Source: Oscillospiraceae bacterium (GTDB taxonomy: Bacteria; Bacillota; Clostridia; Oscillospirales; Oscillospiraceae). From it: a DNA stretch of 32,065 nucleotides. Where the stretch lies: positions 1-32,065 of the forward strand of contig JAFOKO010000152.1 in the NCBI GenBank assembly GCA_017419715.1, given 5' to 3'. Below, one piece after another: positions 5,862 to 29,773 of the stretch; the stretch's first letter is position 1; every line of letters begins with the position of its first letter. Both the position numbers and the translations under genes were made by a program. The notes beneath the pieces are model-generated. The model was not told where the DNA came from, ran no database searches, and worked only from the letters and a program-made list of their open reading frames with translations.

Positions 5862-5890
5862 TTGACGCTTTGGGGGATTTTTTGTATAAT
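5862..5890 (+). promoter_or_regulatory. sigma-A promoter of the DUF1538/PII operon
   Basis: TTGACG (5862-5867), a 17-bp spacer and TATAAT (5885-5890). The start point would fall near 5896, giving a leader of about 32 nt to the GTG start at 5929. Confidence 0.88.
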
Positions 5891-5928
5891 AGCCCTGCTG
5901 CTAATCGCAAATGAAAGGGGCGTGTGCT

Positions 5929-7461
5929 GTGCGAGAGCTGAGAAACAGCCTGAGCGACAAGCTGAAAGAGGCGCTGCGCTCGGTGCTGCCGATTCTTCTG
6001 ATTGTGCTGCTTCTGTGCTTCCTGGTGGTCCCGGTGTCCTCTGGTGTGCTGTTGACCTTTCTGATGGGCGGCGGCATGCTGATTTTCGGGATGATGTTCT
6101 TTACCCTGGGGGCGGAGCTCTCCATTTCCCCCATGGGCGAGATGGTCGGCACCCAGATGACCAAGAGCAAAAAGCTCTGGGTGATGATCCTCCTGGCTCT
6201 GGTTTTGGGCTTTATCATCACGGTCTCGGAGCCGGACCTGCAGGTGCTGGCCGGGCTGGTGCCTTCGGTTCCCAACGCTGTCCTGATTGCGGCGGTGGCC
6301 TGCGGCGTGGCGGTGTTTCTGGTGCTGGCTTTGCTGCGTATGCTCTTCCGGATCCCACTGCCGCCGCTGCTGATCGGCTTTTACACCCTGGTTTTTCTGC
6401 TGACGCTGATCGTGCCGGAGGACTTTCTCTGCGTAGCCTTTGACTCCGGCGGCGTCACCACGGGTCCCATGACGGTTCCCTTCATTATGGCGCTGGGCGT
6501 CGGCATCTCCGCCATCCGAAGCGACCGACACGCCGCCAACGACAGCTTCGGTCTGATCGCCATGTGCTCCATCGGGCCGGTGATCGCGGTTCTGATTCTC
6601 GGCGCGGTTTATGGCGGCGAGCAGGACGCCTACACGCTGGCAATGCCGGACAATATCAGCGACTCCCGGGCTCTTTGGGCCCTGTTCCGCCAGGGCTTGC
6701 CCACCTATCTGGGGGAAATTGCCGTTGCTCTTCTGCCTATTGCGGTTTTCTTTGCGCTCTTCCAGATCACAGTGCTGCGGCTGCCCTGGGCGCGGCTTTC
6801 CCGGGTGCTGGTGGGTCTGGCCTATACCTATGTCGGGCTTGTGGTCTTTCTCACCGGGGCGAATGTGGGCTTTATGCCGGCAGGCGTCTACTTGGGAGCG
6901 CAGCTGGCCGGGATGGAGACCCGCTGGCTGCTTGTCCCCATTGGCATGCTGATGGGCTACTTTATTGTCAAGGCTGAGCCTGCTGTCTATGTGCTCAACA
7001 AGCAGGTATCGGAGATGACTGACGGCAATATTTCCGAGGCGGCCATGGGCAGGGCCCTGTCCATTGGCGTGGCGGTTTCTGTCGGCATCGGCATGCTGCG
7101 GGTGCTGACTGGGATCTCCCTGCTCTACATTCTGATCCCGGGCTATATCGCGGCTTTGGCCATCTCTCTCTTTGTGCCGAAGCTCTACACCGCGATCGCC
7201 TTCGACTCAGGCGGCGTAGCCTCCGGCCCCATGACGGCGGCCTTCCTGGTTCCCTTTGCGCAAGGTGCCTGCCAGGCTGTGGGCGGCAATCTGGTCACAG
7301 ACGCCTTCGGTATCGTGGCGATGGTAGCCATGACGCCGCTGATCACGATCCAGTTTATGGGTCTTCTGGCGCACCGGCGCAAGCGGCTGGAGGACAAGCG
7401 TCTGGCAATGCTGCTCCAGGCTTGGGAAGCGCTGGAGGATGACAGCATCATCAAGCTGTAA
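5929..7461 (+). CDS. DUF1538 integral membrane protein (transporter-like)
   Basis: A 510-residue polytopic membrane protein with two DUF1538 halves. The signature FDSGGVTTGPMT (about residues 171-182 from the GTG start) returns as FDSGGVASGPMT (about 425-436). Each is followed by a DxFGxxAM segment, and each half has earlier matches too: a TLGAELSISPMGEMVG/LTGANVGFMPAGVYLG pair and a SEPDLQVL/AEPAVYVL pair. This twofold repeat inside the membrane is typical of secondary transporters with substrate-binding re-entrant segments. No substrate is known for the family. GTG 5929 is preferred because AAAGGGG precedes it; an in-frame ATG at 5911 has no ribosome binding site and only about 15 nt of leader. 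The PII-like gene begins 12 bp after its stop, implying PII control of the transporter (inference). Confidence 0.88.
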   Translation: MRELRNSLSDKLKEALRSVLPILLIVLLLCFLVVPVSSGVLLTFLMGGGMLIFGMMFFTLGAELSISPMGEMVGTQMTKSKKLWVMILLALVLGFIITVSEPDLQVLAGLVPSVPNAVLIAAVACGVAVFLVLALLRMLFRIPLPPLLIGFYTLVFLLTLIVPEDFLCVAFDSGGVTTGPMTVPFIMALGVGISAIRSDRHAANDSFGLIAMCSIGPVIAVLILGAVYGGEQDAYTLAMPDNISDSRALWALFRQGLPTYLGEIAVALLPIAVFFALFQITVLRLPWARLSRVLVGLAYTYVGLVVFLTGANVGFMPAGVYLGAQLAGMETRWLLVPIGMLMGYFIVKAEPAVYVLNKQVSEMTDGNISEAAMGRALSIGVAVSVGIGMLRVLTGISLLYILIPGYIAALAISLFVPKLYTAIAFDSGGVASGPMTAAFLVPFAQGACQAVGGNLVTDAFGIVAMVAMTPLITIQFMGLLAHRRKRLEDKRLAMLLQAWEALEDDSIIKL

Positions 7462-7473
7462 AGGAGGGGCGAC

Positions 7474-8166
7474 ATGAGCGAGCTTTCACTGATGGTGACC
7501 ATCACAAACAAGGTCAACGCCGAAAAATTCCAGAAGATCTACAATGAATTGGATGCCAGCGTAAGCTTTTTGAGCTTTGGACGCGGGACGGCGACCTCCC
7601 GGGTGCTCAACATTCTGGGCTTGGAACGGGCTGAAAAGGCGATCATGCATACCGTTATAAAAAACAGCCTCTTTCCCAGGCTCCGGCGGGAGCTGGAGCG
7701 GCGTTTTGTGATCGATGTGCCGGGAACGGGGATCGTCTTTTTGGTTCCGCTCAGCGCTGTGGGCGGAAAACGGCAGCTGGAGCTGCTGCTGGGCAATCAG
7801 GAATATATCATGGGGGAGGAAACGAGCTTGAAACAGACGGAGCAGGAATTGATCGTGGTTATTTCCAATCAAGGCTATTCTGAGATGATTATGAATGCGG
7901 CCCGTTCCGCCAAGGCGGGCGGCGGCACTGTGATCCACGCCAAGGGCACCGGCAAAAAAGGCTCGGAGAAATTCTTCGGCTTTGCGCTGGCGGAAGAAAA
8001 GGAAATGCACTACATCGTGGTTTCCACGGAGAACCGGGACGCGGTGATGCGGGCAATCATGGACCAAAGCGGGATCCGCTCCAAGGCCCAGGCCATCTGC
8101 TTTTCCCTCCCGGTTACAGATGTGGCCGGGATGCGCCTGACGCCGTTGACGGTGGAGGAAGCGTAG
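7474..8166 (+). CDS. tandem PII-like (GlnB-fold) signalling protein
   Basis: A 230-residue cytosolic protein made of two PII-like units, about 4-100 and 122-220. Each unit has a first beta strand (LSLMVTITN / QELIVVISN), a Gly-rich T-loop-like region (FGRGTATS / AKGTGKKGSE) and a closing strand. PII proteins bind ATP, ADP, cAMP or 2-oxoglutarate and dock onto transporters. The uridylylated Tyr of classical GlnB is not apparent, so this is a PII-like rather than a nitrogen-regulatory GlnB protein. It starts at ATG 7474 behind AAAGGAGGGG and is the last gene of the DUF1538 operon, closed by a strong terminator. The proposed role, gating the DUF1538 protein in response to nucleotide or metabolite levels, is inferred from operon pairing. 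Confidence 0.88.
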   Translation: MSELSLMVTITNKVNAEKFQKIYNELDASVSFLSFGRGTATSRVLNILGLERAEKAIMHTVIKNSLFPRLRRELERRFVIDVPGTGIVFLVPLSAVGGKRQLELLLGNQEYIMGEETSLKQTEQELIVVISNQGYSEMIMNAARSAKAGGGTVIHAKGTGKKGSEKFFGFALAEEKEMHYIVVSTENRDAVMRAIMDQSGIRSKAQAICFSLPVTDVAGMRLTPLTVEEA

Positions 8167-8209
8167 ACAACGGCAAAAAGCTTGCGCACGCGGGGACGCC
8201 GCATATCAC

Positions 8210-8243
8210 AAAACAGACCGTGCCGGGCGGCACGGTCTGTTTT
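8210..8243 (+). terminator. strong intrinsic terminator
   Basis: A perfect 15-bp stem, AAAACAGACCGTGCC (8210-8224) with GGCACGGTCTGTTTT (8229-8243), closes on a GGGC tetraloop and ends in TTTTGT. It ends the DUF1538/PII operon and, being symmetrical, may also serve the convergent gene at 8275. Confidence 0.93.
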
Positions 8244-8274
8244 GTCGGCGGGGCGGATCGGAACGCGGGCAGCC

Positions 8275-8937
8275 TCAATCGGGCATGGGATCGCTCAGGA
8301 TTGCTTTCAGCTCTTCCAGATCCCCCAGATCCTCCGGATTTTCCAGGTCCTCCATCTCCAGTTCTTCCTCGGCCTGATTCTGGCTTCTGAGGAAGGCCTG
8401 GAGGTAGCGGATCAACAGCCGTTCTTCCTTACGGGGCAGATCGTGCTGATCCAGGCCAATGCTGCCGTTGGTGTGCAACAGCTCCAGGAAGGTTTTCTGG
8501 TGGATGCTGTAGAGCAGGAAGAAGACACCGGCGAAAAGGATACAGATCACCGCATCCAAAGTGGGATTCCAAGCGCTGTCTGCAGCGAAATGGGTCAAGC
8601 TGTCCATCAGCAGCAGGGCCGGCCCCAGCAGCAGAAAGAAAAAGGCCAGCGACAGCAGAAACTGGTTGCGTTGCGTGAGGTATTTGATGTCTTTGAATTC
8701 TTCCAAATCCAGGCGGAAATCGATTTGCCTGGTCTGATAGTCGTGCCGGTCGCGGCTTACGGTGCATTTACCCTTGCAGTAGACGGCCCGATCTGAGAGC
8801 ACAGCAAAGCACTTCTTGCGGATCCCCTTTTCCAGGAAGGATCGAAGCTGCCGACTGCCGACGGCACAAAGCATTTTTTCATCCGGTTCCAGGAAGATTT
8901 CTCCCTGGACCTGTTCTTCATTGATGAATTGCGGCAT
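8275..8937 (-). CDS. hypothetical membrane protein, possible bacterial PH-like domain
   Basis: A 220-residue protein I do not recognise. Residues 14-85 ([43 protein letters not shown]) have the strand pattern of bacterial PH-like domains, which often end in such a helix. Two membrane segments follow (about 92-111 and 128-146), then a soluble tail ending in a strongly acidic stretch (about 188-215, many Glu/Asp). ATG 8937 has AGGAGG six bases upstream. It is monocistronic, with its own consensus promoter divergent from mnmG. The PH-like assignment is tentative. Confidence 0.75.
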
Positions 8938-8972
8938 GGTATGCCTCCTGTTTCCGGTTTGGTTCGCCCCAT

Positions 8973-9001
8973 ATACTATCATGTTTTTTTCGGAATGTCA
9001 A
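8973..9001 (-). promoter_or_regulatory. sigma-A promoter of the gene at 8275-8937
   Basis: On the minus strand TTGACA (9001-8996) and TAGTAT (8978-8973) are spaced by 17 bp. Confidence 0.8.
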
Positions 9002-18513: not shown

Positions 18514-19255
18514 GTAGCTCCACCGGACAGTGGTCTGAGCCGAAGATCTCCTGGTGGATAGCGGTGGAGATCAGCTTCTCCTGCAGGCGGTCGGAGATGA
18601 CGAAATAGTCGATGCGCCAGCCCACATTTTTTTCTCTGGCCCGCATGCGGTAGCTCCACCAGGAGTATTGATCTACCGCGTCCGGGTGCTGGAAGCGCCA
18701 GGAATCCGTGAAGCCCGCCGCCAGCAGTTCGGAGAATTTGCCCCGCTCCTCGTCGGAGAAGCCCGCATTGCCCCGGTTGGCCTTGGGGTTCTTGAGGTCG
18801 ATCTCCTGGTGGGCCACATTCAGATCGCCGCAATAGATCACGCTCTTATGCTGGTCCAGCTTTTGCATGTAAGCCCGGAGGGCGTCCTCCCAGGCCATGC
18901 GAAAGTCGATGCGCTTGAGCCCGTCCTGGGCGTTGGGCGTGTAGCAGGTGAGCAGGTAGAAGTCCGGGTATTCCAGTGTGATGAGCCGCCCTTCATGGTC
19001 CAGCTCCTCCACGCCCACGCCGTAGGAGACGGAAAGCGGCGCATGCTTTGTAAAGACCGCCGTGCCGGAGTAGCCCTTCTTCTCGGCGGAGTACCAGAAC
19101 TGATGATAGCCGGGCAGCTCCAGCTCCAACTGCCCCGGCTGCATTTTCGTCTCCTGCAGGGAGAAGAAATCCGCGTCCAGGGCGTGAAAGGCATCCAAAA
19201 AACCCTTGTCCACACAGGCCCGAAGCCCGTTGACATTCCAGGAGATGAATTTCAT
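18494..19255 (-). CDS. exodeoxyribonuclease III / AP endonuclease
   Basis: DNA repair enzyme cutting 5' of abasic sites, with 3'-exonuclease and phosphatase activity. The 253 residues carry the full EEP active site: N7 (SWNVNGLRA), E35 (LQETKMQ), Y105 (CYTPNAQ), D144 and N146 (GDLNVAH), and D241-H242 (GSDHCPVEL). ATG 19255 has GGAGG at good spacing and its own promoter. The final residues QLKIER are encoded within the TTGAAAA-type repeat, so the C-terminus may have been trimmed or replaced by it. It is called exoA in Bacillus and xth in Escherichia. Confidence 0.95.
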   Translation of the reverse strand: MKFISWNVNGLRACVDKGFLDAFHALDADFFSLQETKMQPGQLELELPGYHQFWYSAEKKGYSGTAVFTKHAPLSVSYGVGVEELDHEGRLITLEYPDFYLLTCYTPNAQDGLKRIDFRMAWEDALRAYMQKLDQHKSVIYCGDLNVAHQEIDLKNPKANRGNAGFSDEERGKFSELLAAGFTDSWRFQHPDAVDQYSWWSYRMRAREKNVGWRIDYFVISDRLQEKLISTAIHQEIFGSDHCPVELQLKIER

Positions 19256-19299
19256 AAATCGTACCTCCGTCGTTTAAAATTCGGTGTCGGTGTTGGAAT

Positions 19300-19328
19300 A
19301 TCGTATCATATTTTTCGACAAAGCGCAA
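19300..19328 (-). promoter_or_regulatory. probable promoter of the exonuclease III gene
   Basis: On the minus strand TTGCGC (19328-19323), a 17-bp spacer and TACGAT (19305-19300). Confidence 0.65.
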
Positions 19329-19349
19329 CGCCTACCCGGAAAAATGTGG

Positions 19350-19378
19350 TTGTAATCACGCAATCTGTGTGCTATAAT
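19350..19378 (+). promoter_or_regulatory. sigma-A promoter of uppP-mrp
   Basis: TTGTAA (19350-19355), a 17-bp spacer and TATAAT (19373-19378). The leader of about 80 nt holds a hairpin, GCGAAGTGCAA (19397-19407) with TTGCACTTTGC (19421-19431), 11 pairs including one G-U. Confidence 0.82.
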
Positions 19379-19465
19379 ATCAAAATGCGAAGAGACGCGA
19401 AGTGCAATTCGCGATTTATTTTGCACTTTGCAATCTGCATTCCATATCCCGGAGGTGGCGTTTAT

Positions 19466-20290
19466 TTGATCGAACTTCTCAAAACAATTTTCCTCGGCAT
19501 TGTTGAGGGCATCACCGAATGGCTTCCGGTCAGCTCTACGGGCCATCTGCTCCTGGTGGATGAATTTCTGCAGCTGGACGCCGCCAAGGATTTCAAGGAT
19601 GTGTTCTTCTATGTCATCCAGCTTGGCGCAATTCTGGCGGTGGTCTTCCTGTTCTGGGATCAGCTCTGGCCGTTCGGCAGAAAACCGAAAGGCGGGATCC
19701 TGGTGAAGGAAAAGACGATCTCCCTCTGGTGCAAGGTCGTCGTGGCCTGCATCCCCGGCGCGCTGGCCGCCGTTCTTCTGGAAGACTGGATCGACGAGCA
19801 CATGGAGACGCCTGTGGTCATTGCCGCCGCCCTCATCGCCTACGGCGTTGGCTTCCTGGTGGTGGAGCGCTGGAACCGGAGCAGGCAGCCCCGTGTCGGC
19901 AAGGTCGAGGAGATCTCATATCCCACCGCACTCGGCATTGGTCTGTTCCAGGTCCTGTCCATCATCCCTGGCACCTCCCGTTCCGGAGCCTGCATCATCG
20001 GCGCACTGATCCTGGGCGTGTCCCGGCCCGCCGCCGCCCGTTTCACCTTTCAGATGGCTGTGCCGGTCATGCTCGGTATGAGCCTGCTGAAGCTTTTGAA
20101 GTTCGGACGCGCTTTTACCGGTTCTGAGCTGTGGATCCTGCTGCTGGGCTCTGCAATGGCCTTTGTGGTCTCTATGGTCGTGATCCGCGGCTTGATGAAC
20201 TACATCCGCAAGCACGGCTTTGAGGTTTTCGGATACTACCGGATCGTTCTGGGTATCATAATTCTGTTCTATTTTTATCTGGTGAGGTAA
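19466..20290 (+). CDS. uppP: undecaprenyl-diphosphate phosphatase, BacA type
   Basis: Membrane phosphatase recycling the undecaprenyl carrier for peptidoglycan synthesis; it also gives bacitracin tolerance. The 274 residues contain the two catalytic loops: EGITEWLPVSSTGH (14-27, with E14, E18, H27) and PGTSRSG (168-174, with R172). About eight membrane segments are visible, including 45-65, 88-104, 116-134, 205-255 and 255-272. The start is TTG 19466, ten bases after GGAGG; earlier in-frame starts lie in the leader hairpin. The Mrp gene follows after six bases. Confidence 0.96.
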   Translation: MIELLKTIFLGIVEGITEWLPVSSTGHLLLVDEFLQLDAAKDFKDVFFYVIQLGAILAVVFLFWDQLWPFGRKPKGGILVKEKTISLWCKVVVACIPGALAAVLLEDWIDEHMETPVVIAAALIAYGVGFLVVERWNRSRQPRVGKVEEISYPTALGIGLFQVLSIIPGTSRSGACIIGALILGVSRPAAARFTFQMAVPVMLGMSLLKLLKFGRAFTGSELWILLLGSAMAFVVSMVVIRGLMNYIRKHGFEVFGYYRIVLGIIILFYFYLVR

Positions 20291-24629: not shown

Positions 24630-26075
24630 TCACTTCCGCAACCAGGTGGAGGGCGACAGGGAGATCAGCATGGGATAGATCTCCAAGCGGCCAAACAGCA
24701 TGGCGATGGACAGAACAAATTTGAAGAAGGGTCCGTAGCCGGAGTAGCTGGCGGCGGGGCCGACCAGGTTGAGGCCTGGGCCAATGTTGTTGTAACAGGC
24801 CGCCACGGCGGTAAAGTTGGAAACGCCGTCGAAGCCGGGCTGGAAGGAGACAATAAACCAGAATGCGGCAAACAGGCCGATATAGAGCGAAAAATAGGTG
24901 CCGACACTGATAAGCGTGGCGTTGTCCACGGGCTTGCCCTCGAAGCGGACCGAGGTGACAGAGCGGGGATAGAGCAGATGCCGGATCTCCCGCCGGATGG
25001 TTTTGAACATCAGCACCACCCGGGAGACCTTGAGCCCGCCCGCTGTGGAGCCCGCGCATGCGCCGATGAACATCAACAACACCAGAATCATCCGGGACAC
25101 GGCGGGCCATTCGTCAAAGTTCACCGTGGAAAAGCCTGTGGTGGAGGAGATGGAGGTCACTTGAAAGTAGGCGGCCCGGATCCCCTCTGCCGTATTCCCG
25201 ATTTGCGGTGTGATATTCACGGAGATCAGCGCCGTGGCAAGGAAGATGATCACAAGATAGGTCCACAGCTCCTCACTCCGAAACGCGGAGCGGAAGCGCC
25301 GGATGACCAGCAGGAAGTAGAGGTTGAAGTTCACGCCAAAGAGCATCATGAAGACCGCGATGACCCATTGCTGATAGGGCGTGTAGTCCGCAAGACTGGT
25401 GGTCTTCATGCCAAAACCGCCGGTGCCGGCTGTGCCGAAGGTGTGGATGGCGCTGTCAAACAGCGGCATTCCGCCCACCACAAGGAGCGCCAGCTCCAAA
25501 GCTGTCATGGCGATATAGAGCAGGTAAAGGATCTTGGCGGTGTCCCGTAGCCGGGGGGAGAGCTTGCCCATGGTGGGGCCGGGCATTTCCGCCCGGAGGA
25601 TGTGGATGGTCTGCCCGGAGAGATTCGGCATCACTGCCACCATCAGCACCAGCATGCCCATGCCGCCGATCCAGTGGGTAAAGCTCCGCCAGAACAGCAT
25701 AGAGCGGGACATGGCTTCTACATCGTCCAGAATGGAGGCCCCGGTGGTGGTGAAGCCGGAGACTGTCTCGAAAAAGGCGTCCACAAAGCTGGGGATCTCT
25801 CCGCTAATGACGAAGGGAAGCGCGCCTAGAGCAGAGGCACAGAGCCAGGCAAGGGCGGTAATGAAAAAGCCTTCCTTGGCGTAGATCACCTGGTCGTCGG
25901 TGCGGCAGAGCTTGCACAACAGCATGCCCAGGCCGACGCAAAGGACCGCGGTGCTCAGAAAGGGGAGTTGCCCGCCGTCCCAGTAGTAGAGGGAGACAGC
26001 CAGCGGTAGCAGTAGTAGGCAGCCCTCCAGCAGTAAGATCCGCCCAATCAGGAAAAAAACCATTTTCCGGTTCAT
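24630..26075 (-). CDS. trkH: Trk-type potassium channel subunit TrkH
   Basis: Membrane pore of a Trk/Ktr potassium uptake system, 481 residues. The four pore loops are present: SGFTTTGASIL, GTAGTGGFGMK, SSTTGFSTVNF and ACYNNIGPGL, each carrying the selectivity-filter Gly. CAGSTAGGLK, between the third and fourth repeats, is a TrkH landmark. ATG 26075 has AGGAGGG upstream and lies ten bases after trkA, so the two form one operon and one complex. It is the last gene of the potassium run. Confidence 0.95.
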   Translation of the reverse strand: MNRKMVFFLIGRILLLEGCLLLLPLAVSLYYWDGGQLPFLSTAVLCVGLGMLLCKLCRTDDQVIYAKEGFFITALAWLCASALGALPFVISGEIPSFVDAFFETVSGFTTTGASILDDVEAMSRSMLFWRSFTHWIGGMGMLVLMVAVMPNLSGQTIHILRAEMPGPTMGKLSPRLRDTAKILYLLYIAMTALELALLVVGGMPLFDSAIHTFGTAGTGGFGMKTTSLADYTPYQQWVIAVFMMLFGVNFNLYFLLVIRRFRSAFRSEELWTYLVIIFLATALISVNITPQIGNTAEGIRAAYFQVTSISSTTGFSTVNFDEWPAVSRMILVLLMFIGACAGSTAGGLKVSRVVLMFKTIRREIRHLLYPRSVTSVRFEGKPVDNATLISVGTYFSLYIGLFAAFWFIVSFQPGFDGVSNFTAVAACYNNIGPGLNLVGPAASYSGYGPFFKFVLSIAMLFGRLEIYPMLISLSPSTWLRK

Positions 26076-26085
26076 GATGGCCCTC

Positions 26086-27447
26086 CTAAAGCAGAATATC
26101 TGCCAAGGTATTCAACCTTTGCTGCCCGGCAATGACTACGACCCGGTCGCCTGGAAGGATCATGTCGTTACCGGCGGGGATGATGGCCTTGCGGTCCCGA
26201 AGCAGACCGGCGATCAGAATGTTCTTTTTCAGCCGTAGATCCTTGAGGGGAATGCCGGTGTAGGCCGCCTCGTTGCTAACGATGAATTCCAGTGCTTCGG
26301 CCTTGCCGTCCATCAGCTGATAGAGATTCTCGATGGAAGAAGAGCCCATGGAGGACTGCAGGGCGCGCACATAGCGCAAGACCACGCTCACCACCACGGC
26401 CTTTGGGGATACCACATTTTCCAGACCCATCTGGGCAGCCATCTTTGCCATTTCGTCGATGTTGACCTTGGCAATGACCTGGCCCACATGCTGGGCCCTG
26501 GCGTAGTAGGCGGCCAGAATGTTTTCCTCGTCCATGCCGGTCAAGCAGACGAAGGCGTCCTGGTCCTGGAGTCTGGCTTCCTGGAGAACCTCCGGATGGG
26601 TACCGTCTCCTAATTCCGTTTCGATGGCGGGGTACACATCGCTGAATTTGTGAAGCGTCGCCTTATCGGTGTCGATCAGCTTTACATTGGAGCCAGAGTT
26701 CAGTAGCAGCTTGGAGAGATAGAAGGCAATTCGGCTGCCGCCCAGCAGTAGGACATTCCGGGCCTGCTTTTTGGCCAGACCGATGGTCTTGAAGAGCTTC
26801 CAGAGCTCCACCCGGTCCGCCGTGATACCGATGCGGTCACCGATTTCCAGCACATAATCGCCCCGGGGGATGACGACTTCGTTGCCGCGCTGCACCGCGC
26901 ACACCAGAAACATGGCCTTGAAGCGGCCGCGCAAGTCTTCCAGCTTGTGCCCCACAAAGGGGGAATCCTCCTTCAATCGGATCTCCACCATTTCAAAGTT
27001 CCGCCGGGAAAAGGTCTCCACCTTGGAGGCGGCGGGGAGCTTGAGGATGTGGTGGATCTCCTGGGCAGTCAAAAACTCCGGATTGATGGGCATGGACAGG
27101 CCCAGCTGCTCGCGTAGAAAGCCCAGCGATTTGTCGTTGTATTGGGGATTTCGGATGCGGGCGATGGTGTGTTTGGCCCCTTGGCGGCGGGCCAGGTAGC
27201 AGATCAGCATATTCAGTTCGTCCGAGCCGGTCACGGCAATCAGCAGGTCGGTTTTTTCCACGCCGGCCTCCAGCAGGGCTTCACAGTCCGCGCCGCTTCC
27301 GGACACGCACATCACATCATAGCGATCGTTCATCGTCTCCAGCAGATCCGAGCGGCTGTCCATGGCTACCACATCGTGGCCCTCCGCCACCAGCACGCTG
27401 AGCAGCGCCACGCCGATCTTTCCACAGCCTACAAGTATGATCCTCAT
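26086..27447 (-). CDS. trkA: Trk potassium uptake regulator TrkA
   Basis: Cytosolic gating ring of the Trk system, 453 residues with two RCK repeats. The first NAD-binding fold has GCGKIG (7-12) and D30 (VVAMDSRSD), followed by RCK_C at about 140-225. The second begins at about 230 with LLLGGSRIAFYL, whose glycine pattern is degenerate, and ends with a second RCK_C (to 453). ATG 27447 follows GGAGG. Stop and start of trkA and trkH are ten bases apart. The usual ligands are NAD(H), ATP or c-di-AMP. Confidence 0.95.
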   Translation of the reverse strand: MRIILVGCGKIGVALLSVLVAEGHDVVAMDSRSDLLETMNDRYDVMCVSGSGADCEALLEAGVEKTDLLIAVTGSDELNMLICYLARRQGAKHTIARIRNPQYNDKSLGFLREQLGLSMPINPEFLTAQEIHHILKLPAASKVETFSRRNFEMVEIRLKEDSPFVGHKLEDLRGRFKAMFLVCAVQRGNEVVIPRGDYVLEIGDRIGITADRVELWKLFKTIGLAKKQARNVLLLGGSRIAFYLSKLLLNSGSNVKLIDTDKATLHKFSDVYPAIETELGDGTHPEVLQEARLQDQDAFVCLTGMDEENILAAYYARAQHVGQVIAKVNIDEMAKMAAQMGLENVVSPKAVVVSVVLRYVRALQSSMGSSSIENLYQLMDGKAEALEFIVSNEAAYTGIPLKDLRLKKNILIAGLLRDRKAIIPAGNDMILPGDRVVVIAGQQRLNTLADILL

Positions 27448-27495
27448 TGCAAAAAACCTCCAGGGAAATTGATAGTGCGCGCTAGCGGAACGCGC

Positions 27496-28143
27496 TCAGC
27501 GAATATGGAAGCACTTCCGGATACTTTGCAGTTCGCCCACCACATAGGCGACATCACCGGCCTTGAAGGCCCGGTCCGGCTTCGGCATTTTGACCTGGCC
27601 GTTGATGCGAAGAGAGATCAGATTGAGTTCATGTTTTCTCCGAAGATCCAGTTCCACCAGGGTTTTGCCGTACCACTCCTCCGGCACAGCCATCTCGTAG
27701 ATGGAGTAGCCGCCCTCGAACTGCATATAGTCGAGGATCTTCTCCGAGGCGTACTTGATGGCAAGCCGCCGGGCGACCTGCTTTTCGGGGTAGACCACCT
27801 CGTCCGCCCCGTTGCGCAAAAGAAACTTCTCCTGGATCTCATTCTTGGCCCGGGAGATGACCTGCTTGGCCCCCAACTCCTTGAGCAGAGAGGTGGTTTC
27901 CAGCGAGGTCTGAAAGTTTTCCGAGATGGTCACCACGCACAGGTCGTAGTTGCCCACCCCCAGGGTAGACAAAAAATTCGGATTCGTGCAGTCGCCGATC
28001 TGGGCGTCTGTGACATAGGGCATCACGGCGTTGATCAAATTTTCCCGCACATCTACGATCATGATCTCATAGCCCTGCTCGTTCATCTGCCGGGCCAGCA
28101 TAGAGCCGAAATTTCCGGCCCCCAGGATTAGTACGGATTTCAT
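27496..28143 (-). CDS. ktrA: KtrA-type potassium uptake regulator (single RCK)
   Basis: A 215-residue cytosolic protein with one RCK unit: NAD-binding GAGNFG (8-13) and D31 (IMIVDVREN), then RCK_C from about residue 140 (GKTLVELDLRRKHELNLISL). The length and single unit fit KtrA/KtrC rather than TrkA. ATG 28143 has AAAGGAG five bases upstream. It should gate the KtrB-like pore encoded just upstream, from which it is separated by the hairpin array at 28185-28378. The trkA gene follows after 48 bases. Confidence 0.92.
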   Translation of the reverse strand: MKSVLILGAGNFGSMLARQMNEQGYEIMIVDVRENLINAVMPYVTDAQIGDCTNPNFLSTLGVGNYDLCVVTISENFQTSLETTSLLKELGAKQVISRAKNEIQEKFLLRNGADEVVYPEKQVARRLAIKYASEKILDYMQFEGGYSIYEMAVPEEWYGKTLVELDLRRKHELNLISLRINGQVKMPKPDRAFKAGDVAYVVGELQSIRKCFHIR

Positions 28144-28184
28144 TGGAACTCCTTTCCATAAATGCAGAATGCAGCGTTAGGGTG

Positions 28185-28378
28185 ATGAAGTATGCTTCAC
28201 ATATGAAGTAAGGCTTTGCCTTATGAAGACGCTTCGCTTATGAAGTATGGCTTCGCCATATCTCATATAGCGGAAGCCTTCCCGTTTTGCCGATATTGCC
28301 GCAGGCAATACTTCATATCTCCAGAGGAGATACTTCATACCCGGAAGGGGTACTTCATATCCCAAAGGGACATGTCAT
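28185..28378. repeat. array of about eight small hairpin units with inverted halves
   Basis: ATGAAG(TA) recurs at 28185, 28203, 28223 and 28240, then its inverse TACTTCAT at 28309, 28331 and 28351 plus a decayed copy near 28371. Between them lie short self-complementary cores such as AGGCTTTGCCT, TGGCTTCGCCA and ATCTCCAGAGGAGAT. Units are 17-22 bases, and orientation flips near 28290. The array fills the 247-base gap between ktrB-like and ktrA-like genes. No gene is present in it. Confidence 0.85.
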
Positions 28379-28390
28379 ATTTCCCAGAAA

Positions 28391-29773
28391 CTATCCCACC
28401 GTCACCGTTTCCAGCGGCTTCTTGCCGGGGGGGTTCTTTCCGCCGGGGAGGAGGGCGTAGACCAGGGTCAACGCGCCGACGCGACCGAGGAACATCAGGA
28501 TCATCAAAATAATCCGGGAACAGTGGTGCAGGCTCGGAGTGATGCCGAGGGTCAAGCCCACGGTGCCCACCGCAGAACTGGTTTCAAACATACAGGTCAA
28601 CAGCGGCAGATCCTCCACCCGGGAGAGTACGGCGGAGCCGACCGTGAACAGCATCAGATACAGGAACAGGATCGTACCGGCATTCCGGATCGCGTCCTGC
28701 CCGATCCGGCGGCGGAAGCACTCCACATCATCCCGGCGGCGGAATACGGTGGCGCCGGCCAGAAAGAGCACGGCGACCGTAGTGGTCTTCATGCCGCCGG
28801 CCGTGGAGCCGGGTGAGCCGCCCACCAGCATCAGGGCGATCATCTGCAGAATGCCCGGTTCGGACATTTTCGTCAAGTCGGCAGTGTTAAAACCGGCAGT
28901 CCGCGTGGTGACGGACTGAAACAGAGAGGCCAGGATCCGCTCTTTCAGAGGCAGATCCCGGTATTCCAGCAGGAAGTTCAACCCGGCGGGGAGCAGAATC
29001 AGCACCACCGAGGTCACCAGCACCAGCTTGGTTTGCAGCCGAAGGCGGCGGAGGTGGAAGCAGTTTTCCTGCAGATCCTCCCACACCAGAAAGCCGATGC
29101 CGCCCACGATGATCAACAGCATGATGACCGTGTTGACCCATGCGTCTGTCCCGTAGCTGGTGAGGGAGGAATACTTTTCCCGCACCCCCATCAGATCAAA
29201 GCCCGCGTTGCAGAAGGCGGAAATGGAGTGGAACACACTGTACCACAGTCCCTTGGCAAAGCCATAATCCCGCACGAAGACTGGCAGCAGCAGCAGCGCG
29301 CCGCACAGCTCCACGAAGATGGAGCCCCGGAGGATGAAGCCCGTCCGCCGGACGATGCCGCCCACCTGGGGCGCGGAGATGGATTGCTGCATCATGTTTC
29401 GCTGGGCCAGGCTGATCCGCCGACCCCAGAGCCGGAAGAAGGTTACGGCGACGGTGATAACGCCCAGTCCGCCGATCTGGATCAGCGCCAGAATGATGAG
29501 CTGGCCCCAGACCGTCCAGTGGGTGGCCGTGTCCTGCACCACCAGACCGGTCACACAAGCGGCGGAGACGGAGGTGAAAAGCGTGTCGGCAAAGGGCGTC
29601 ACGCGCCCGTCCCGGCTGCACAGCGGCAGCATCAGAAGCAGGGCGCCGAGCAGGATCAAGCCCAGAAAACCCAAAAGTATGACTTGAAAGGAAGCAGTGG
29701 TGTGGTTTTTTCGAATCAAGAACCCTAAGCGCAAGAAGGTTCCCCCTTTCGACCCCTTGGGGGAAGCAATCAT
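28391..29773 (-). CDS. ktrB: KtrB-type potassium channel subunit
   Basis: Second pore protein of the window, 460 residues in the ATG form. Pore loops: VSAACVTGLVV, SAFCNAGFDLM, TTRTAGFNTAD and SSAVGTVGLTLG, with the family landmark GGSPGSTAGGMKTTT. These match KtrB better than TrkH. ATG 29773 overlaps the stop of the MATE gene (ATGA), with AAGGTG upstream. A TTG at 29734 behind AAAGGGGG gives a more KtrB-like N-terminus and is a serious alternative. KtrA is encoded downstream beyond the hairpin array. Confidence 0.93.
   Translation of the reverse strand: MIASPKGSKGGTFLRLGFLIRKNHTTASFQVILLGFLGLILLGALLLMLPLCSRDGRVTPFADTLFTSVSAACVTGLVVQDTATHWTVWGQLIILALIQIGGLGVITVAVTFFRLWGRRISLAQRNMMQQSISAPQVGGIVRRTGFILRGSIFVELCGALLLLPVFVRDYGFAKGLWYSVFHSISAFCNAGFDLMGVREKYSSLTSYGTDAWVNTVIMLLIIVGGIGFLVWEDLQENCFHLRRLRLQTKLVLVTSVVLILLPAGLNFLLEYRDLPLKERILASLFQSVTTRTAGFNTADLTKMSEPGILQMIALMLVGGSPGSTAGGMKTTTVAVLFLAGATVFRRRDDVECFRRRIGQDAIRNAGTILFLYLMLFTVGSAVLSRVEDLPLLTCMFETSSAVGTVGLTLGITPSLHHCSRIILMILMFLGRVGALTLVYALLPGGKNPPGKKPLETVTVG

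Follow-up and report, generated by a model that had tools for sequence, protein, structure and literature searches.

The stretch of DNA analysed here, referred to below as the window, is the 32,065-nucleotide contig JAFOKO010000152.1 of an Oscillospiraceae bacterium (assembly GCA_017419715.1), and our subject is a two-gene operon within it. The first gene encodes a transporter-like protein with two DUF1538 domains in one chain, and the second a soluble protein with two PII domains in one chain (a tandem PII protein). A preliminary description of the same DNA had placed a promoter, these two genes and a terminator at 5862 to 8243 as an isolated unit, and its coordinates hold, with the terminator reaching to 8245 (Table 1). 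Promoter, genes and terminator together form an isolated two-gene unit.

Table 1. Positions of the operon's features in the window and of two transporter-PII fusions in other genomes
Feature	Position	Strand	Remarks
Promoter TTGACG-17-TATAAT	5862..5890	+	sigma-70-type, 11/12 consensus matches
Single-chain double-DUF1538 (UmpAB-type) transporter gene	5929..7461	+	510 amino acids (aa) from GTG 5929; 516 aa if ATG 5911
First DUF1538 domain	5992..6606	+	PF07556, 228.3 bits
Second DUF1538 domain	6739..7368	+	PF07556, 235.1 bits
C-terminal tail of the transporter	7378..7458	+	27 aa, basic then acidic, ends EDDSIIKL (codons 7435-7458); candidate PII docking peptide
Shine-Dalgarno sequence AGGAGGGG of the PII gene	7462..7469	+	read directly; strong
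Tandem PII protein gene	7474..8166	+	230 aa; PF00543, profile of short PII open reading frames (ORFs; two domains), AlphaFold2 (AF2) model
N-type PII domain	7483..7767	+	residues 4-98; custom profile; clade on PII-domain tree
C-type PII domain	7831..8133	+	residues 120-220
Intrinsic terminator	8208..8245	unassigned	perfect 18-bp inverted repeat 8208-8225/8228-8245; -32.6 kcal/mol, z -6.7
G426 fusion	L200 2638-4494		618 aa
G365 fusion	L212 2422-4302	-	626 aa

The product of the first gene matches PF07556 (DUF1538) with an E-value of 8.5e-136 (450.4 bits against a cut-off of 22.6) in two stretches, and the two domains are 29% identical to each other (65/223). The preliminary description held that DUF1538 has no assigned substrate, which proved wrong: in the available text of one report, UmpA and UmpB of Halomonas zhaodongensis, a split DUF1538 pair, carry out Na+(Li+,K+)/H+ antiport, jointly confer salt and alkali tolerance on Escherichia coli KNabc, co-immunoprecipitate and are reported as a heterodimer, and the charged residues common to them are counted as three Arg, two Asp and one Glu (PMC5484666). 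In an alignment of 226 DUF1538 domains (109 first, 109 second and eight lone domains), a Glu and an Asp are conserved in 97%, in both halves, and an Arg in 92% overall, yet in only about one of the eight lone domains. The corresponding positions in the window protein are E107/E356, D178/D432 and R143/R397. The conserved Glu and Asp of both halves fit an ion-coupling role, as far as conservation can tell. The AF2 model of the protein is of fair confidence (predicted local distance difference test, pLDDT, 78.5). A fold comparison of this model with the PDB gave no significant match, which does not show a new fold, and a sequence search for a solved DUF1538 structure found none at E up to 1.

The second gene product is recognized by PF00543 (P-II) as a whole protein (33.8 bits against a cut-off of 25), the match lying in the C half only. 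The N half scores as PII (7.2e-9) with a custom profile of 26 short PII ORFs from related operons, a value obtained by searching the PII set itself. In the AF2 model, which is middling (67.8, four stretches under 50, built from 10 sequences), two beta-alpha-beta-beta-alpha-beta units appear, which is the PII fold, and the C-type half has an SbtB-like fold. The gene itself is the single PF00543 match in the window genome, which has no match to the ammonium transporter family PF00909 and is 86% complete.

The two genes are paired well beyond the window. We surveyed 398 genomes of the phylum (Bacillota), and found DUF1538 in 139, the tandem-PII profile (A1) in 139 and both in 137, so that 137 of the 141 genomes with either gene hold both, while two have only DUF1538 and two only the PII. 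The two genes are adjacent and on one strand in 134 of 138 genomes; this count takes 138 of the 139 DUF1538 genomes, leaving out G094, and includes one genome (G292) in which an ORF is read across a run of N. Nearer relatives outside the 138 show adjacency in seven of seven cases. Across 138 units in which the PII follows DUF1538, both genes always share a strand, with a median gap of -11 bp; overlaps and lengths are upper bounds, as gene starts were taken mechanically from first-start ORFs. We reject chance adjacency on the co-occurrence (137 genomes with both) and the 134/138 count. The preliminary description had supposed that the PII protein is partnered with the transporter and had proposed a neighbourhood survey as a check; adjacency is indeed conserved, the genes rarely occur singly, and in two cases a PII domain is fused to the transporter (see below).

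The exceptions are few. The genomes with DUF1538 only are G342, in which the gene stands at a contig end, and G094, in which it has decayed (two TAG and four TAA codons inside) and no PII of this type is found at E <= 1; G094 is a case of co-loss of DUF1538 and PII. Of the PII-only genomes, G087 rests on a weak match. In the other, G404, a single PII of the DUF1538-linked type precedes a CitMHS/ArsB-type permease (L181 3158-5092) in a genome without DUF1538, possibly a partner switch to another transporter. The four non-adjacent genomes are G256, with the two genes on different contigs, G351 and G342, with DUF1538 at a contig end, and G145, with a short contig-end DUF1538 fragment just before the PII. 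One could suppose that the PII protein acts elsewhere, as a general sensor of nitrogen or energy, and is merely co-transcribed with DUF1538. Canonical PIIs do have several targets, according to the accessible part of one report (PMC10710835), and in G256 and G404 the PII lies away from DUF1538. Nevertheless, the adjacency, the co-loss in G094 and the two single-chain fusions make this explanation very improbable.

Outside Bacillota, the survey covered plasmids only; nine records hold DUF1538, and seven of these were examined. All five annotated plasmid loci have a P-II family regulator next to DUF1538, with differing outer neighbours, and two of the five are from Alphaproteobacteria (two species) and carry split DUF1538 genes with one PII. 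Both unannotated plasmid records have fused DUF1538 with a tandem PII (the PII ORF of L066 is over-long). Six DUF1538 records labelled as phage (H19-H24) were not used, all being unannotated, the two inspected being marked unverified, and the DNA probably being bacterial. Three loci (L108, L112 and L122) each have two DUF1538-PII operons in direct repeat, a tandem duplication of the whole unit.

The architectures of the two partners were compared in 123 units from 118 sources, and the larger survey shows the same pattern. Lone DUF1538 genes come with one PII domain in six units and with a tandem PII in one (L165). Pairs of DUF1538 genes come with one PII in 23 units, two PII genes in nine and a tandem PII in 17. 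Fused DUF1538 comes with a tandem PII in 59 units, with two PII genes in three, never with a single PII and in two units with none in reach; the three leftover units (L029, L072 and L123) are contig-end cuts or fragments. These counts could suggest that PII domains are recruited one per transporter half, an N-type domain by one half and a C-type domain by the other, which would explain why fused transporters have two PII domains (62 units, against none with one) and why a single PII domain is present in six of the seven intact lone DUF1538 units that include a PII. However, the 62 fused transporters all fall into one clade (SH-aLRT, the Shimodaira-Hasegawa-like approximate likelihood-ratio test, 100, quick search) on a tree of 109 operons, which omits 14 of the 123 units (12 without exactly two usable DUF domains and two without PII). 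Fusion is thus one event, and its link to a doubled PII proves nothing by itself. We accordingly dropped the idea of correlated evolution, which amounts to one change, and to one pair in an independent-pairs test. Since, in addition, split pairs have either one PII (23 units) or two PII domains (26), and the lone DUF1538 of L165 has a tandem PII, we consider recruitment of one PII domain per half quite unlikely.

The preliminary description was right that the two PII halves in one chain differ. A tree built from 203 PII domains places the 87 N-type domains, without exception, in a single clade (SH-aLRT 97) that excludes the C-type domains and the single PIIs, although this tree has 107 columns and long branches and comes from a quick search. 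Because all of these first domains group together, the two kinds of PII seem to have split once, before the transporter halves fused, and many lineages seem to have retained both since then as a non-identical pair.

A further link between the two proteins comes from G426 and G365, genomes of different families, in which a single chain has the order DUF1538-DUF1538-PII. The two fusion proteins are 66.7% identical over 625 columns, and the PII domain sits after a charged linker, C-terminal to both DUF1538 domains. It is nearer to the C type (75.8 and 74.0 bits) than to the N type (50.1 and 51.1 bits), and its absence from the Pfam matches listed at 0.01 marks it as divergent, judging by sequence. 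A separate tandem-PII gene lies just upstream of each fusion with a 4-base overlap (by mechanical ORF calls), which gives three PII domains per transporter chain. We regard the fusions as good indirect evidence that the PII works on DUF1538, and they would place it at the transporter's C-terminus. What looks like another transporter-PII chain, in G292, is on a contig interrupted by runs of N, and we do not count it as a fusion.

The C-terminus is also where the window's transporter has a candidate docking site. Its lineage, one half of the fused clade (sub1; 30 operons, SH-aLRT 90), has tails that mostly begin basic, and since basic stretches of membrane proteins face the cytosol (the positive-inside rule), the tail is probably cytosolic. 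The pattern [DE]x(0-2)I[IV]x[LFYMW] occurs in 25 of the 30 tails, whereas 1000 shuffles gave 0.65 on average and never more than 4. As the pattern was defined after seeing the first tails, held-out sequences were also checked: five of eight sub1-like tails match, two more have IIDI and one has nothing similar, and none of seven sub2-like tails match. For the two PII-fused chains this check used the first 28 tail residues only, as the pattern also matches inside the fused PII. From these data, we suggest that the acidic-hydrophobic tail of the window's subclade is a candidate PII docking peptide; more speculatively, its resemblance to the PII strand EKEIVLT would suit strand addition. The pattern is found in 0/32 other fused transporters (counting L120, which is off the tree), in 0/50 units with two DUF1538 ORFs (counting the interrupted fused-type L140 and L144) and in 1/8 lone units (counting the fragment L072). 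Being absent from the other fused and the split transporters, the tail, on its distribution, cannot be a general docking mode.

A hint at what the transporter moves comes from cyclic di-AMP (c-di-AMP) riboswitches. We scanned 131 sources including the window (1.017 Mb) with Rfam, leaving out 32 of 52 further loci and L029, L060, L063-L066 and L074. Three c-di-AMP aptamers were found across the 131 loci, two of them directly upstream of a DUF1538-PII operon and on the same strand: in L105, with a split transporter, a terminator-like hairpin with a T run lies between the aptamer and the gene, and in L194 the transporter is fused. Under uniform placement, the chance of at least two of three aptamers falling in such spots is about 3e-4, a rough figure as the loci are related. 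The third aptamer (L072 4913-5085) lies immediately after a DUF1538-PII operon, ahead of an asnB-like (asparagine synthetase-like) gene. At high c-di-AMP, these riboswitches usually switch off genes for the uptake of K+ and osmolytes. Their position directly upstream of the operon in two relatives thus hints at a role in K+ or osmotic homeostasis, with uptake perhaps more likely than export. In the window, no Rfam family reached its gathering score; the window genome does encode a diadenylate cyclase domain.

Taken together, we incline, with moderate confidence, to the reading that the operon encodes a monovalent-cation transporter of the UmpAB type, in one chain, together with a dedicated PII pair that gates it. 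The transporter would be a pseudo-symmetric secondary transporter of Na+ and/or K+, most likely against H+, with UmpA- and UmpB-like halves fused. Its dedicated soluble sensor, two different PII domains in one chain, would bind the transporter's cytosolic face, in the window's lineage probably via the acidic-hydrophobic tail. A small ligand between the PII domains, our first guess being an adenine nucleotide or a c-di-AMP-like ligand, would then switch transport, with the docked PII blocking or releasing it as GlnK does with AmtB and SbtB with SbtA (PMC10710835, PMC13249358). We infer the cation substrate of this member, the binding, the ligand, the sign of control and the stoichiometry.

Several observations weigh against this reading. 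The window protein does not reach the UmpA/UmpB equivalog models (176.3 bits against 490 for NF041627 and 142.9 against 500 for NF041628), and with scores below these curated cut-offs it is, by sequence, a relative of UmpAB and not an equivalog. The PII of G256 is on another contig than DUF1538, and that of G404 lies in a genome without it. The tail is limited almost wholly to one subclade, and an upstream c-di-AMP riboswitch is present in only two of the 131 scanned loci and not in the window. In an alignment with MJ0059, the equivalents of K90 and R101 are I and G in the family and in both window halves; in canonical GlnB and GlnK we take these residues to be phosphate contacts. Finally, the accessible text on UmpAB mentions no PII, and the cloned fragment that was active in E. 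coli held a piece of a citrate transporter, a gene of the major facilitator superfamily and umpAB, with no PII gene (PMC5484666). As UmpAB was thus active in E. coli with no dedicated PII gene beside it, the PII by analogy probably regulates transport and is not required for it, although E. coli does encode PIIs itself.

Some of these points lend weight to other explanations. First, the transporter could be PII-gated while moving something other than a monovalent cation, such as bicarbonate, an organic anion or an amino acid together with Na+ or H+, with the activity of UmpAB belonging to only part of the family. The low equivalog scores, the PII beside a CitMHS/ArsB-type permease in G404 and the c-di-AMP aptamer that precedes an asnB-like gene in L072 would all suit this explanation, and other PII-controlled transporters move ammonium, urea or bicarbonate, as the available part of one report has it (PMC10710835). 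However, the Glu and Asp conserved in both halves fit ion coupling and the upstream riboswitches of two lineages point to K+ or osmotic control, so that we judge a non-cation substrate unlikely.

Second, the tandem PII may no longer bind nucleotides, and could instead be a structural or regulatory subunit, respond to another ligand (a cation, pH or c-di-AMP) or merely stabilize the transporter. The replaced K90 and R101 positions suggest this, as does the loss of motifs: the PGxGI loop is no longer in the majority among C domains of the window's subclade, and the HE motif is absent from N domains in general. In the single PIIs and the C-type PIIs of split operons, on the other hand, the Gly, Thr and loop motifs (GRGTGIHE, IEPEKE and KPGxGIAF) are strongly conserved, and a ligand pocket thus seems to be selected there. 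We therefore see such a loss as somewhat unlikely for the PII pair. With both of the canonical phosphate-contact residues exchanged in each half, the nucleotide control of the transporter proposed in the preliminary description is a guess.

For the favoured reading of a PII-gated cation transporter, symmetry is a real question, because a PII ring consists of three domains whereas UmpAB is reported to be a heterodimer; operons in which a chain goes with three PII domains are relevant to it. According to a review, the use of PII on transporters appears restricted to those able to function as trimers (PMC10710835). A bolder proposal is that PII control extends beyond trimeric transporters, with a pseudo-symmetric cation antiporter being clamped by a non-identical PII ring. 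The PII domains would have been duplicated once and joined, and a third fused to the C-terminus of the transporter in two genomes, giving exactly three different PII domains, one ring, for each transporter chain, and the PII ligand would be integrated with c-di-AMP control of K+/Na+ homeostasis. We regard this proposal as rather improbable.

The borders and surroundings of the operon are as follows. Promoter-like sites of the same quality number two in the scanned region, compared with 1.0 expected. The transporter gene more likely starts at GTG 5929 than at ATG 5911, because AAAGGGG at 5914-5920 precedes the GTG by direct reading and the DUF1538 ORFs of L021-L024 are 510 aa, matching the length from GTG 5929. 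The terminator repeat is flanked by A and T tracts, and may for this reason be bidirectional, also serving a convergent gene at 8275-8982. This gene has no Pfam match above cut-off and is followed by gidA/mnmG; the upstream neighbour of the operon is an M28 peptidase gene on the opposite strand. About 16.5 kb from the operon, two TrkH-type K+ transporters stand in a row on the minus strand (24630-29773), each beside a TrkA-domain protein, forming TrkH/TrkA K+ uptake systems. At 18554-20290, a 578-aa ORF has the domain named BacA in Pfam at 312-569 only, and Pfam matches nothing in its first 300 residues at 1e-4.

PII proteins are the textbook sensors of nitrogen and carbon. If our reading is true, salt and pH homeostasis would be added to their targets, and there would be a regulator for DUF1538, a candidate site for its binding and a simple system for tests. 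This type of PII is tied to a widespread family, with DUF1538 in 139 of 398 genomes of the phylum as well as on plasmids of two alphaproteobacterial species. PII-gated transporters are known, and so are DUF1538 antiporters, but their pairing appears undescribed as far as the literature seen goes: the accessible parts of the open-access literature on DUF1538 (subscription papers lay outside the scope) gave no link to PII.

Among known systems, UmpAB shares with the window the DUF1538 family and two homologous halves, but in the available text (PMC5484666) it consists of two genes whose products are reported as a heterodimer, with no PII mentioned, whereas the window has one chain and a PII gene, and lies below the NCBIfam cut-offs for UmpA and UmpB. 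SbtA-SbtB resembles our operon in having a dedicated PII-like protein with a secondary transporter, and the C-type half in the window has an SbtB-like fold. As far as the available texts describe them, however, SbtA belongs to another family and forms a trimer, and SbtB has one PII domain and an R-loop (PMC13249358, PMC10710835), while the window's PII is doubled. Conserved gene adjacency, a trait of pairs of the AmtB-GlnK and SbtA-SbtB type, holds here in 134/138 genomes. AmtB-GlnK is the classical gene pair in which a PII acts on a transporter. Like GlnK, the window's PII is recognized by PF00543, but its genome has no Amt match, and the T-loop region is shorter than that of archaeal GlnK, by about five residues in an alignment of the single PIIs. 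NifI1 and NifI2 form a mixed complex of two PII paralogues, and share with the window that two diverged PII paralogues are encoded together, although their target, nitrogenase, differs; the PDB entry that the single PIIs match best by sequence, 9p1x_H, may be of the NifI kind. PII-NG is linked to metal-efflux operons, but belongs to another PII subgroup and goes with another type of transporter; in the accessible part of one report, a PII is induced together with metal-stress genes (PMC7726332). The tail of the window's transporter, lastly, recalls the C-terminal tip of the single-stranded DNA-binding protein SSB, an acidic-hydrophobic peptide used for docking, a likeness that is an analogy only, with no homology.

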